Shown: piece after piece, positions 2,135 through 51,634 of the stretch
Layout of the letters: each line of letters starts with the position of its first letter
Numbering within the stretch: position 1 is the stretch's first letter
Source of the DNA: Candidatus Omnitrophota bacterium
Lineage (GTDB): Bacteria > Hinthialibacterota > Hinthialibacteria > Hinthialibacterales > Hinthialibacteraceae
Reading direction: 5' to 3'
NCBI GenBank assembly: GCA_013177805.1
Contig: JABLXU010000019.1
Span: 1-64,000, forward strand
DNA length: 64,000 nucleotides
Program-made: the position numbers and the translations under genes
The notes under the pieces: generated by a model
The model's database searches: none
What the model was told of the DNA's origin: nothing
The model's input: only the letters and a program-made list of their open reading frames with translations

Positions 2135-3127
2135 TCATTTCCTTTTATATCCATCGGGATGCGCAAGAAACCATTGCCACGCGGTATGGATGATTTCCTG
2201 GATATCGACATAGCGGGGCTTCCAATCCAGAAGCCGTTGGGCTTTTCGCGCCGAGGCGATCAAGCGGGGCGGGTCACCCGGCCGGCGCGGCGCTTCGCGG
2301 ACCGGAATGGGATGGCCCGTCACGGCGCGGGCGGCTTGGATCACTTCAAGCACCGAATAGCCCTGTTCCGTGCCCAGGTTGCATGTGATGCTTTCTTGCT
2401 TGATATACTCCAGCGCGCGGAGATGGGCATCGGCCAGATCGCTGACATGGATATAATCGCGAATGCAGGTTCCATCCGGGGTATCGTAGTCGGTCCCAAA
2501 GATCGAAACGGCCTCCCGCTTGCCCAGGGCGGTGAAGAGCACCAAGGGAATCAAATGGGTTTCCGGATCATGATCTTCGCCCTGTTCCAAGGCCGCGCCC
2601 GCCGCGTTGAAATAGCGCAGGATAGCGTGCCGGATGCCATACGCCTCCTCATAGCTTCGGATCAGCAGCTCAAAAGCCAATTTGGAGCGGCCGTAGGGAT
2701 TGATCGGATTGGTGGGCTGTGTTTCATCGATGGGCACGTTGTCCACTTCGCCATACGTAGCGCACGTCGAGGAAAAAACAATCCGCTGGACCCCATGGCG
2801 GCGCATGGCGTTAAGCAAATGATAGCCGCCGATGAAGTTGTTATGAAAATATTCTTCCGCGCGCGTCATGGATTCGCCCACGTACGCGTAGGCGCCGAAA
2901 TGCATGACCGCGTCCACGCGATGCGCCTCGAATACCCGGTTGAGGGCCGCTTCGTCACGCAAATCGCAAGTCTCGATGACGGCCCTCGGCGGAACCGCCT
3001 CCCGGTGGCCGCGCTCGAAATTGTCCACCACGATGACGCGCCGGCCCTGCTGGAGCAACGCCGCTGCATTGACGCTGCCGATGTAACCTCCGCCGCCGGT
3101 GACCAGAATGGTTTCGGGATGATTCAT
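2135..3127 (-). CDS. galE: UDP-glucose 4-epimerase
   Basis: MNHPETILVTGGGGYIGS Rossmann motif, SSTCATYGEVDNVPIDE, PYGRSK. Start placed at 3127, because the longer ORF to 3271 translates an intergenic repeat. Confidence 0.9.
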   Translation of the reverse strand: MNHPETILVTGGGGYIGSVNAAALLQQGRRVIVVDNFERGHREAVPPRAVIETCDLRDEAALNRVFEAHRVDAVMHFGAYAYVGESMTRAEEYFHNNFIGGYHLLNAMRRHGVQRIVFSSTCATYGEVDNVPIDETQPTNPINPYGRSKLAFELLIRSYEEAYGIRHAILRYFNAAGAALEQGEDHDPETHLIPLVLFTALGKREAVSIFGTDYDTPDGTCIRDYIHVSDLADAHLRALEYIKQESITCNLGTEQGYSVLEVIQAARAVTGHPIPVREAPRRPGDPPRLIASARKAQRLLDWKPRYVDIQEIIHTAWQWFLAHPDGYKRK

Positions 3128-3215
3128 ATTGGTATCGTTTTTAATTGTAAATTGTGATGCCAGAAGCAATCTACCTGATTCCCGAGAGAGGATGCCTTCC
3201 GCCTTTGCAGGACGA

Positions 3216-3250
3216 CCCTCACCTTCACCCTCTCCCAGAGGGAGAAGGGA
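3216..3250 (+). repeat. Dispersed intergenic hairpin element, copy J (ccctcaccttcaccctctcccagagggagaaggga)
   Basis: Matches core consensus CCCTCACCCTGGCCCTCTCCCAGAGGGAGAGGG. Confidence 0.75.
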
Positions 3251-3356
3251 TCTTCTTGCACGCTCAGCCAAGCACCTGCCCTGGATACCAGAAAAGATCC
3301 GCCTGCAGGAATCCCGTCAAAACTCTTCTTCGTGGCGCCAAAGGACCGGCTTGCTT

Positions 3357-4400
3357 TCAACGGATCGCGACAGCCTGCCCCGTGCGGGCTGATTCATAGC
3401 AGGCGGCGATCACTTTTTGATTTTGCAGTCCAATCTCAGCGCCCACCCGGGGTTCCCGGTTTTCCTGGATGGCCTGGCTGAATTCCTCGATTTCCGATTG
3501 ATAGAGGTTTTCCGTTCCGGCGGTGATGGGCGTCCCTTGCTCTGACGCGCGGGCTTGTTGCGCGTCATAGCCGGCCGCGGTCTCTTGGAGATAAGCGGTC
3601 ATCTCGCCGCCGCTGCTCTGCCCGATGGTGCCCCGGGCCACTATGCCGCCTTGGGAGCCATACAACTCCAACACATTTTTGCTGCTATTGTCCGGCACGC
3701 AGAAAAAAGCATCCACGGTGGCCAACGCGCCATTGGCGAAAGACAACAGGATTACAGAACTGTCTTCCGAGGCATAGGGATGGACGAGATTATTGACAAA
3801 GCAACTGACTTTCGCCACGGGGCCGAAAAACATCTCCAGCAGATCAATGCAATGGCTGCCCATGTCAATCAACGCTCCACCGCCGCCCAGAGCGGGATCC
3901 TGCCGCCAGGCCCCCGGAATGGGCGGATACCAGCAGGACAGTTGCGCGCGGGCATAGACCGGCTTGCCCAGCCTCCCAGCCTGGATGATTTTCAGCGCGG
4001 CTTGATGCAAGGGATGGAAGCGCATCATGAATCCCACCCCCAGCCGCACGCCGGCTTGGCGGCAGGCTTGGATCATCGCTTCGGCCTGGGGAACATCCAA
4101 TCCCAGCGGTTTTTCGCACAAGATATGCTTGCCGGCCGCAGCGCAGGATTGCACCTGACCGGCATGCGCGAACACCGGTGCCGCCACATACACCGCGTCA
4201 ATATCCTGGTTCAGCAATTCTTCCAGGCTGGAACACGCTTGAACCCCATATTGCGCCGCGACTTCTTGATTGACCGCCGCGTTCGTGTCAAACACCGCGG
4301 CCAATTCGGCATTGCGGGCTTTCGTGATCCCTTCGGGAATCGTCCGCCGCCGCGCGATGCCGCCCGAACCGCTCACGCCCCATTTGATTTTGGCCGTCAT
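3357..4400 (-). CDS. Gfo/Idh/MocA family oxidoreductase
   Basis: MTAKIKWGVSGSGGIARRRTIPEG, AAPVFAHAGQVQSCAAAGKHILCEKPLGLD (EKP motif). Confidence 0.9.
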   Translation of the reverse strand: MTAKIKWGVSGSGGIARRRTIPEGITKARNAELAAVFDTNAAVNQEVAAQYGVQACSSLEELLNQDIDAVYVAAPVFAHAGQVQSCAAAGKHILCEKPLGLDVPQAEAMIQACRQAGVRLGVGFMMRFHPLHQAALKIIQAGRLGKPVYARAQLSCWYPPIPGAWRQDPALGGGGALIDMGSHCIDLLEMFFGPVAKVSCFVNNLVHPYASEDSSVILLSFANGALATVDAFFCVPDNSSKNVLELYGSQGGIVARGTIGQSSGGEMTAYLQETAAGYDAQQARASEQGTPITAGTENLYQSEIEEFSQAIQENREPRVGAEIGLQNQKVIAACYESARTGQAVAIR

Positions 4401-23274: not shown

Positions 23275-23297
23275 GGGCGGGCACTCAGGTCCGTCCC
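23275..23297 (+). repeat. Diverged solitary relative of the 48.7-49.5 kb array hairpin, followed by degenerate core element (23306-23335)
   Basis: gggcgggcactcaggtccgtccc. Confidence 0.55.
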
Positions 23298-47896: not shown

Positions 47897-48691
47897 ATGA
47901 CCAATTCTGACGGATATCACGATCCGTTCATTGCCCGGACGTATGACTTGGTGGTGCCCTACCGCCACCGGCGGGATGTTGAGTTTTTCGTGGAGATGGC
48001 GCGCGCGGCGGGCGGGCCGGTATTGGAGTTAGCCTGCGGGACGGGCCGGGTATTGCTGCCCATCGCGCGGGCCGGGGTTCCGATCACCGGTTTGGATCTA
48101 TCGCCGGCCATGCTAGCGGTCTGCCGCGAACGGTTGGCGCTCGAACCACCCGCCATTCAGGAAAAAGTCCACTTGATGGAGGGGGACATGCGGAGATTCG
48201 CGATGGCTGAGCGTTTCGCTTTGGTTCTCATCCCCTTCCGTTCTTTTCAGCATTTGTTGACCGTCGAAGATCAACTGGCTTGTCTGCAGCGGTGCCGGGA
48301 TCATCTCAAGGAACATGGCCAGTTGGTGTTGGATTTGTTCAATCCTTGTCTTTCTTATCTATCGGACGAGCGTTTTCTGGAGGTTACGGAATCGGAACCG
48401 GAATTTATTCTTGACGATGGCACACGGATCGTGAGGCAAAACCGCCTATTGGCCCGGGATTTATTCAATCAGGTGATCGACATGGAGTTCCTCTACCGGA
48501 TTACCTATCCCGGCGGCCGCCACGGTAGCATAGCCCACCGCTTTTCCATGCGTTACCTTTTCCGGTATGAGGTGGAGCATTTGCTGGAGCGGGCGGGATT
48601 TCAAGTCGAGGCGGTGTACGCCGATTACAAAAAAGCGCCTTATGGATCCCAATATCCGGGCGAATTGATCGTGGTGGCGCGGAAACGGTGA
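47897..48691 (+). CDS. Class I SAM-dependent methyltransferase
   Basis: VLELACGTGRVLLPIARAGVPITGLDLSPAMLAVCRERL. Confidence 0.9.
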   Translation: MTNSDGYHDPFIARTYDLVVPYRHRRDVEFFVEMARAAGGPVLELACGTGRVLLPIARAGVPITGLDLSPAMLAVCRERLALEPPAIQEKVHLMEGDMRRFAMAERFALVLIPFRSFQHLLTVEDQLACLQRCRDHLKEHGQLVLDLFNPCLSYLSDERFLEVTESEPEFILDDGTRIVRQNRLLARDLFNQVIDMEFLYRITYPGGRHGSIAHRFSMRYLFRYEVEHLLERAGFQVEAVYADYKKAPYGSQYPGELIVVARKR

Positions 48692-48700
48692 AAAGAGATT

Positions 48701-49544
48701 CTGTTTACTGAAAAACACGGGCGGACACCCAGGTCCGCCCCTACATTGTTTACTGAAAAACACGGGCGGACACCCAGGTCCGCCCCTACATTGTTTACTG
48801 AAAAACACGGGCGGACACCCAGGTCCGCCCCTACATTGTTACTGAAAAACACGGGCGGACACCTAGGTCCGCCCCTACATTGTTTACTGAAATACACGGG
48901 CGGACACCCAGGTCCGCCCCTACATTGTTTACTGAAAAACACGGGCGGACACCCAGGTCCGCCCCTACATTGTTACTGAAAAACACGGGCGGACACCCAG
49001 GTCCGCCCCTACATTGTTACTGAAAAACACGGGCGGACACCCAGGTCCGCCCCTACATTGTTACTGAAATACACGGGCGGACACCCAGGTCCGCCCCTAC
49101 ATTGTTTACCGAAAAACACGGGCGGACACCCAGGTCCGCCCCTACATTGTTACTGAAATACACGGGCGGACACCTAGGTCCGCCCCTACATTGTTACTGA
49201 AAAACACGGGCGGACACCTAGGTCCGCCCCTACATTGTTACTGAAAAACACGGGCGGACACCTAGGTCCGCCCCTACATTGTTTACTGAAAAACACGGGC
49301 GGACACCTAGGTCCGCCCCTACATTGTTTACTGAAAAACACGGGCGGACACCTAGGTCCGCCCTACATTGTTTACTGAAAAACACGGGCGGACACCTAGG
49401 TCCGCCCCTACATTGTTACTGAAATACACGGGCGGACACCCAGGTCCGCCCCTACATTGTTACTGAAATACACGGGCGGACACCCAGGTCCGCCCCTACA
49501 TTGTTACTGAAATACACGGGCGGACACCTAGGTCCGCCCCTACA
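48701..49544. repeat. Tandem array of 19 hairpin-containing units, period 44-45 bp
   Basis: Unit attgttTactgaaAaacacGGGCGGACaccCagGTCCGCCCctac counted 19 times; no unique spacers. Confidence 0.97.
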
Positions 49545-49551
49545 TTAATTT

Positions 49552-49584
49552 GCCCTCCCCGGCCCTCTCCGGAGGGAGAGGGGG
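49552..49584 (+). repeat. Dispersed intergenic element, copy I, directly abutting the array
   Basis: gccctccccggccctctccggagggagaggggg. Confidence 0.7.
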
Positions 49585-49669
49585 TAAACAGGCGATTTTA
49601 CAATGTCATAATACTTAATAAGATGATATTGGGAAATGCGTGTCATTATCCATAAGGTGTTCGTGTTCC

Positions 49670-51634
49670 ATGATCAGCATCACGGACGGTGAATTGTTGT
49701 TAGGCGGCAAGCCTATTTTTTCCAACCTCTCCTGGCGGATCGACCGGGGGAAACGGATCGGCCTGGTGGGTCCCAACGGGGCGGGAAAAACCTCCCTGCT
49801 GCGGGTCTTGGCGGGGGAATACCCCCTCGAAAAAGGGATAGTGGAGAAATCCCGCGGCCTGCGCATCGGTTATCTTCCCCAAGATTGTGCCGAGCTGCCC
49901 CGCCAGCGGGTGGGGGAAATCCTCTGGCAGGCCTTCGAGCCCTTAAACGCGATGGAGCGGGAGATCCACACGCTGCTGGACACGATCCAGACAGCTGAAA
50001 ACGGTTCTCCCGCGCATGACAAAGCCCTTCACCGGTACGCGGAACTCCAGGAAGAATTCCACCAGCGCGGCGGGTATCAGCGCGAGAGCGAGGCCAAGAA
50101 AATCATGCTCGGCCTGGGATTCCAGCACGCGGATTGGGACCGCCCCGCGGCTGAGTTCAGCGGAGGGTGGCGTATGCGCATCCTGCTGGCCCGCCTGTTG
50201 CTGGAAAAATCCGACATCCTGTTGCTCGACGAGCCGACCAACCACCTTGATCCCGAATCGTTGGCGTGGTTCGAACAATATTTGTTGGGGACGGAATCCG
50301 GCCTGGTGATCGTCAGCCACGACCGGTATTTTCTGGACCGGATCGTGACCCAGATTGCCGAAATCGAACGCGGCCGTTTCCGCTTGTACCCTGGCCATTA
50401 CTCGCAATATCGTATCCAGAAGCAGGCCATCCGCGAACAACTCATGGCGCAGAAGCAGCACCAGGACCGGGAAATCGCCCACCTGGAGCGTTTCATAGAG
50501 CGTTTCAAGGCCAAGAACACCAAGGCGTCGCAAGCCCAATCGCGGATCAAGCGGCTGGAAAAAATCGAACGCATCGAGATCGAAACCGAGGCAAAAACCG
50601 TGACGATTCCCTTGCCGCCCACGCCCCGCAGCGGCAGGGAAGTGTTGATGCTCGACCGGTTGGGGCATTGTTATGGGGAAGTGCGCGCGCTGCACCCTTT
50701 TTCCGCCGTGATCCACCGCGGGGGCCGCGTGGCCGTGTGGGGTCCTAACGGCGCGGGCAAGACCACCCTGTTGTCGCTGATGGCCAAGATCCTGGAGCCG
50801 ACGGAAGGAAGCGTGCAGTGGGGTTACAACACGCACATCGCCTATTTCTCGCAGCACCACGCGGAGTTGCAGGACTCGCAGCAAAGCGTCCTCGAGGAGT
50901 TATCCGCCGTGGCTCCCGCTGAAATGCAAGCCCGCCTGCGGGATGTCCTCGCCGCGTTTCTTTTTCAGGGAGATGACGTGTTCAAACCGGTTTCCGTTCT
51001 CAGCGGCGGGGAGAAGAGCCGCCTGGCGCTTGCCAAACTGCTGGTGCGGCCGGTCAACGTGCTCATCATGGATGAGCCGCTCAATCACCTTGATATCGCC
51101 ACTGTCGAAACCTTGGAGGAAACCTTGAAGACTTTCGCGGGGACCATTGTCTTTGTCTCGCACGACCGCTTTTTCGCAGACCGGCTGGCCACCCAGATCT
51201 GGGAGATGCAGGCGGGGCGGGTCACGATCTTCCAAGGCAATTTTCAGGATTACGACTACGCCAAGCGCCTCCAGGTTTCCGCTGCTCCAGCTGCCCCCCC
51301 GCCCGCCGGCCAGGGAACGGGAGATCCTCCATCATCCACCCGTGAACAACGCAAGGAGCAACGGCGGCGCGAGGCGGAAGCCCGCAACCATCTCAATGCC
51401 CTGCGCCGCAAGCAAGAAAAAGAATGCGCGGCCATCGAGGAAAAAATCCACGCGGCCGAAGCCGAAATCCAGGCGCTCGAGACGCAACTTTCGTCCGGAG
51501 AGTTTGTCCGCGACGAAAACAAAATGGCGGAACTGAGCCGCCGGTACAAGCAGGCGATCAAACTCCGCGACCGCCTCTACGAGAAGTGGGAAGAATTGGT
51601 GGACGCGTTGGAATGCGGCGTGCAGGGGGGATAA
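49670..51634 (+). CDS. ABC-F family ATP-binding protein (two ABC domains)
   Basis: Walker A GPNGAGKTSLL and GPNGAGKTTLL; LLLDEPTNHLDPESL; charged C-terminal coiled coil. Confidence 0.92.
   Translation: MISITDGELLLGGKPIFSNLSWRIDRGKRIGLVGPNGAGKTSLLRVLAGEYPLEKGIVEKSRGLRIGYLPQDCAELPRQRVGEILWQAFEPLNAMEREIHTLLDTIQTAENGSPAHDKALHRYAELQEEFHQRGGYQRESEAKKIMLGLGFQHADWDRPAAEFSGGWRMRILLARLLLEKSDILLLDEPTNHLDPESLAWFEQYLLGTESGLVIVSHDRYFLDRIVTQIAEIERGRFRLYPGHYSQYRIQKQAIREQLMAQKQHQDREIAHLERFIERFKAKNTKASQAQSRIKRLEKIERIEIETEAKTVTIPLPPTPRSGREVLMLDRLGHCYGEVRALHPFSAVIHRGGRVAVWGPNGAGKTTLLSLMAKILEPTEGSVQWGYNTHIAYFSQHHAELQDSQQSVLEELSAVAPAEMQARLRDVLAAFLFQGDDVFKPVSVLSGGEKSRLALAKLLVRPVNVLIMDEPLNHLDIATVETLEETLKTFAGTIVFVSHDRFFADRLATQIWEMQAGRVTIFQGNFQDYDYAKRLQVSAAPAAPPPAGQGTGDPPSSTREQRKEQRRREAEARNHLNALRRKQEKECAAIEEKIHAAEAEIQALETQLSSGEFVRDENKMAELSRRYKQAIKLRDRLYEKWEELVDALECGVQGG

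Follow-up and report, generated by a model that had tools for sequence, protein, structure and literature searches.

A long head-to-tail hairpin array, very probably of a GTAG-class REP element, between methyltransferase and ABC-F genes

The window analyzed here, a stretch of 64,000 nucleotides from a draft bacterial genome (5.58 Mb in 93 contigs, with an estimated contamination of 5.2%), includes a tandem array lodged between two genes encoded on the plus strand. The upstream gene (47897..48691) encodes a SAM-dependent methyltransferase of 264 amino acids (Methyltransf_25), and the downstream one (49673..51634, with the start set by alignment to orthologues) a 653 amino acid ABC-F type ATPase that contains two ABC_tran domains, ABC_tran_Xtn and ABC_tran_CTD. 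The array at this locus is intergenic; it spans 48704..49546 and consists of 19 units of 44/45 bp, all in one orientation, with the REP strand being the minus strand. Tandem Repeats Finder reports a 44-bp unit repeated 19.0 times at 48705-49546 (97% matches, score 1500). Each unit carries a hairpin with an exact 8-bp stem and a 6-nt loop, GGGCGGAC-N6-GTCCGCCC, which is exact in 19/19 units and spans 48719-49539; the first of the 19 hairpins (48719..48740) starts 27 nt past the methyltransferase stop codon. When up to two mismatches are allowed, the hairpin pattern yields 20 matches in the window, compared with 0.13 expected from shuffles. An isolated, decayed copy of the palindrome, with two mismatches, is located at 23275-23296. 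The first-pass annotation described 19 units of 44-45 bp with a perfect 8-bp stem and a 6-nt loop, and this description holds in full, as does the array that it delimited at 48701-49544, except that the right edge is better placed at 49546.

Read on the minus strand, the unit is CAAT-GTAG-GGGCGGAC-CTNGGT-GTCCGCCC-GTG(T/A)TTTTCAG-TAA(A), and the units vary at five sites, in a non-periodic order. The loop variants follow one another along the array as CCCTCCCCCCTTTTTTCCT, with the T variant in units 4, 11-16 and 19, exactly as originally noted; in addition, unit 10 carries TTTACCG, and unit 15 lacks one C. Adjacent units share the same haplotype in 7 of the 18 pairs, compared with 2.2 expected (p about 0.003), as local copying would predict; for the loop variant alone, the clustering of adjacent units gives p about 0.03. 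Thus, the clustering of variants is real but modest, and lends limited weight to the earlier suggestion that it results from unequal exchange or slippage.

In all units, GTAG lies directly 5' of GGGCGGAC-N6-GTCCGCCC, with the last G shared with the stem in unit 15. This arrangement, a short GC-rich palindrome with GTAG immediately on its 5' side, characterizes the GTAG REP superfamily (PMC3733652). The palindrome is far from being restricted to the array. A search for the unit across the genome and its relatives, which had been suggested at the outset, returned 51 exact genomic copies of GTAGGGGCGGACN6GTCCGCCC (none for the reversed control), and with up to two mismatches, there are 133 copies of the palindrome per strand, compared with 13 for the control; the exact pattern is absent from the five other members of the family. 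The same REP forms at least four other head-to-tail arrays, on contigs C1 (55 bp), C60 (55 bp), C17 (71 bp) and C39 (150 bp), and each of these has a spacer and a period of its own, which indicates that each array was built in place. Half-hairpins GACCTAGGTGTCCGCCC form short 17-bp tandem runs right after a full REP in two loci (L041, about 1-100, contig C59; L050, about 1300-1350, contig C71).

A second palindromic element, CCCTCTCCCTC-N-GGGAGAGGGC..GGGTGAGGGAATTTTT, lies ahead of most of the single REPs in the genome. This partner element (CCCTCTCCC..GGGAGAGGG) also adjoins the right end of the array (49548..49588, minus strand, CCCTCTCCCTCCGGAGAGGGCCGGGGAGGGCAAATT), where it abuts unit 19 and no other unit, so that the founder copy is probably the REP of unit 19 (49518..49543, minus strand, GTAGGGGCGGACCTAGGTGTCCGCCC), which was delineated by alignment with the dispersed single REPs. 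Longer flanks around the GAGAGGG partner are common to single REPs (L037, L045, L047 and L048), which suggests that what is dispersed is a composite element some 150-200 bp long.

The genome encodes two Y1 transposases. The one on contig C89 is an ordinary IS200/IS605 transposase that scores 77 bits with NF033573 (cut-off 55), and its gene (L036:1500-2700) is ringed by other palindromic repeats, for example, CCCAGGGTTTTAACCCTCGG and CCCCCTTCAGGGGGCG. The other, on contig C1 (L033:2882-3598, also given as 2885-3598, minus strand), is the only RAYT-like ORF in the genome and matches PF01797 above the cut-off of that family but scores 58 bits, below the cut-off of 80, against NF047646 (REP-associated tyrosine transposase), in two stretches split by REP-coded residues. 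The low score is possibly due to this interruption, and the protein may be decayed. The HUH motif MPNHVHG (MPNHxHG) is conserved, and the segment WQRNYYEH holds the candidate tyrosine, although one homologue has no tyrosine in this place; no sequence match to the protein was found among solved structures. REPs of the array class are located inside this ORF, near its start and, as a 4-unit 55-bp array, across its 3' end; four REP loci lie within 1 kb of the ORF, compared with about 0.02 expected by chance. The RAYT-like gene and the 19-unit array are on different contigs of the assembly. In G129, which belongs to another phylum, a homologous RAYT (43% identity) likewise has REPs of this class within its ORF and next to it, in G134 the dominant REP is GTAGGGGCGGACCTTYAGGTCCGCCC and this form is found near the RAYT match, and the RAYT genes of G037, G004 and G288 are accompanied by GTAG palindromes of other types. 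In the RAYT-like genes of two phyla (L033:2885-3598 and L153:1489-2073, both on the minus strand), the REP is translated in frame as GADLGVR/GADLCVR and occupies the same loop, which separates the HUH motif from the C-terminal WQRN..EH region; in L154, a different GTAG palindrome occurs in the RAYT region between the HUH motif and WQRN..EH.

The orthologous site is empty in a relative from the same family but a different genus (G002): the gap between the methyltransferase gene (56% identity) and the ABC-F gene (65-70%) is 62 bp long there and contains no REP, compared with 981 bp here. Neither was such a REP found upstream of the ABC-F orthologues in four other family members. Given the REP-free gap in G002, both the acquisition of the element and its expansion probably took place in this lineage, gain being a simpler scenario than loss from G002. 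In G003, another member of the family, a Y1-type transposase gene of its own is adjoined by a head-to-tail array of five 47-bp units (L099, contig C134) with a different GTAG palindrome, GTAGGGTGGGATGAGG..ACGAATCCCACC.

The presence of GTAG next to a palindrome, the high dispersed copy number, the extragenic location of the array and a RAYT-like gene flanked by REPs together make up the profile of GTAG REPs. The array is very likely a head-to-tail series of a GTAG-class REP element, unusually long and of an already described kind, and its identity as a GTAG-class REP array is well supported. Among the roles first proposed for the repeat was that of a recently amplified REP-like sequence; this proposal proved right and can be narrowed to a GTAG-class REP that is dispersed, associated with a RAYT-like gene and missing at the orthologous site of a relative. 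The other roles put forward there, a protein-binding or condensation site and a transcript-stability or buffer element, are speculative. No Rfam match was found in the window, and a literature search with the REP sequence string returned, among the matches listed, titles that look unrelated.

Were the array to have any consequence for the adjacent genes, it would most likely be a passive one. A transcript running in the direction of both genes would bear 19 GC-rich hairpins, starting 27 nt past the methyltransferase stop codon, and these could shield the 3' end of the methyltransferase mRNA from exonucleases and uncouple the ABC-F gene. The predicted transcript of the gap, the folding of which had been suggested in the first-pass annotation, is indeed strongly structured (-414 kcal/mol, z = -13 compared with shuffles), but this follows from the repeats, and any such array would show it. 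On the plus strand, the hairpins lack the U-run of an intrinsic terminator, with unit 15 alone passing a loose scan (TACATTGTTT). On the minus strand, the hairpins are followed by TTTTT or TATTT and all units pass the terminator scan, so that antisense transcription would meet 19 terminator-like signals; these signals come from the local spacer and are perhaps incidental. Between the array and the ABC-F gene (49585-49624, plus strand), there are promoter-like sequences, which are consensus matches only (four in the region, compared with 0.6 in shuffles, both strands counted).

The alternative that the 19 hairpins are a selected RNA element, kept because it stabilizes the methyltransferase mRNA or blocks read-through that would enter or leave the ABC-F gene, appears unlikely. 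The co-directional genes, the proximity of the first hairpin to the stop codon, the strong predicted fold and the terminator-like antisense units are all compatible with such a role, and E. coli REPs have been described as 3'-end stabilizers (PMC13289151). Nevertheless, the element is missing at the orthologous site of G002, other arrays of the same REP are located at unrelated places with other spacers, and the T-run belongs to the local spacer rather than to the REP.

Comparable arrays are scattered across bacteria. When 85,000 species were scanned for three consecutive GTAGGGGCG-N12-CGCCC units, with spacers of 12-42 bp and loci limited to about 8 kb, 49 loci were identified in about 35 genomes that represent about 12 phyla by record title, including Chloroflexota, Bacteroidota, Bacillota, Cyanobacteriota, Planctomycetota, Nitrospirota, Acidobacteriota, Verrucomicrobiota and Pseudomonadota, with the caveat that some host labels may be wrong, since metagenome bins account for many of the records. 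Each array has spacers of its own, which are mostly 80-100% alike inside it. Within these limits on spacer and locus size, the measured arrays comprise 3-10 units, so that the one with 19 is the largest. The unit lengths of the 49 arrays are multiples of three more often than expected (p about 0.004) and are weakly phased at 10-10.5 bp (p about 0.025 at 10.5 bp). Both trends were noticed post hoc among partly non-independent arrays, and neither the helical phasing nor the multiples of three were used as evidence.

The array most likely grew locally, and the simplest account is a short-homology duplication that slippage or unequal exchange then extended. Taken together, its left edge and its right edge cover the whole spacer, with an overlap of 1-2 bp, consistent with one initial duplication via microhomology. 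Under the proposed sequence of events, a composite of the GAGAGGG palindrome and the GTAG REP would have been inserted between the methyltransferase and ABC-F genes, perhaps with the aid, at some stage, of a RAYT-type single-strand transposase. The REP, together with about 18 bp of flanking sequence, would then have been duplicated once via 1-2 bp of microhomology, with one breakpoint 1-3 nt from GTAG, as template switching at the hairpin predicts. Finally, slippage or unequal exchange would have expanded the array to 19 copies and partially homogenized it.

Amplification driven by the RAYT itself, in which an HUH transposase would cut single-stranded REP DNA and rejoin it beside an existing copy, yielding head-to-tail copies, is an unlikely alternative. 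In its favor, TnpA_REP enzymes, guided by GTAG, cleave single-stranded REP DNA at CT/CA beside the hairpin and rejoin it (PMC8266576). One breakpoint of the array is 1-3 nt from GTAG, the other, left-hand one follows CA on the REP strand, and the G003 array sits beside a Y1-type transposase gene. However, the upstream break here is at neither CA nor CT, and breakpoints near the REP edge were found in six of nine clean arrays compared with 3.3 expected, with p of only about 0.04. Many arrays (for example, L104, L118 and L128) have the form REP-(spacer-REP)n, which is also expected from plain recombination between two REPs. A count of REP-edge breaks in 18 of 22 arrays was withdrawn because a hidden, degenerate extra REP scores as an edge break by construction. 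Equally improbable is the broader proposition that GTAG REP hairpins of the GTAGGGGCG type recurrently seed head-to-tail amplification in about a dozen phyla via dedicated hairpin-edge or RAYT-driven copying, an active single-REP (non-REPIN) amplification route that would have reached an extreme in the 19-unit array.

It is very unlikely that the array, which comes from an assembly of 93 contigs, is an artefact whereby one or a few units were inflated to 19: the units vary at five sites with no periodicity, the contig runs on with intact genes on either side, and the longest exact internal repeat is just 104 bp, so that 150-bp reads could in principle resolve the array. The chance that these regularly spaced palindromes, with GADLGVRP-type repeats in short overlapping open frames, form a CRISPR-like array or a protein-coding repeat is next to nil, given that the spacers are near-identical across the 19 units, none being unique, as already recognized when the first-pass annotation rejected the CRISPR reading, and that the 44/45-bp alternation shifts the reading frames.

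With the flank of the probable founder, the empty site in a relative and variants that record the steps, the array is a clear natural example of the tandem expansion of a single REP. Together with the 49 similar ones, it provides material for asking which of the two, the RAYT transposase or plain replication slippage, gives rise to REP clusters, a point left open as a 'second mechanism' in PMC3116915.

The GTAG REP superfamily (Di Nocera, De Gregorio, Rocco 2013, PMC3733652) comprises elements that are similar to this REP in being GTAG-ended palindromes of 20-40 bp with high copy numbers, mostly intergenic and near RAYT genes; the difference is that the REP analyzed here forms one 19-unit head-to-tail array and that its clustered exact copies are all head-to-tail. 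The REP sequence itself does not appear in the text of that paper, the consensus list in its Figure 1 aside. The REPs of Pseudomonas fluorescens SBW25 are likewise RAYT-associated and form ordered tandem clusters that include flanks, with up to 12 REPs (Bertels and Rainey 2011, PMC3116915). In contrast to the SBW25 REPINs, the unit here is a single REP; no inverted doublets were seen, with no REPINs among the 51 exact copies and all neighbors within 400 bp co-oriented, which speaks against the main reading in that REPINs are what moves in the well-studied systems. The RAYT-like protein resembles TnpA_REP/RAYT (NF047646, PF01797; PMC2817692, PMC8266576) in being a Y1/HUH protein with REPs of its own class in and beside the gene. 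It differs in scoring below the NF047646 cut-off and in having REP-coded residues in the ORF. The BIMEs of E. coli are clusters of REPs in alternating orientation, and the array is similar to them in being a REP cluster but differs in that all its units are co-oriented. The array is a long instance of a known phenomenon rather than a new system.
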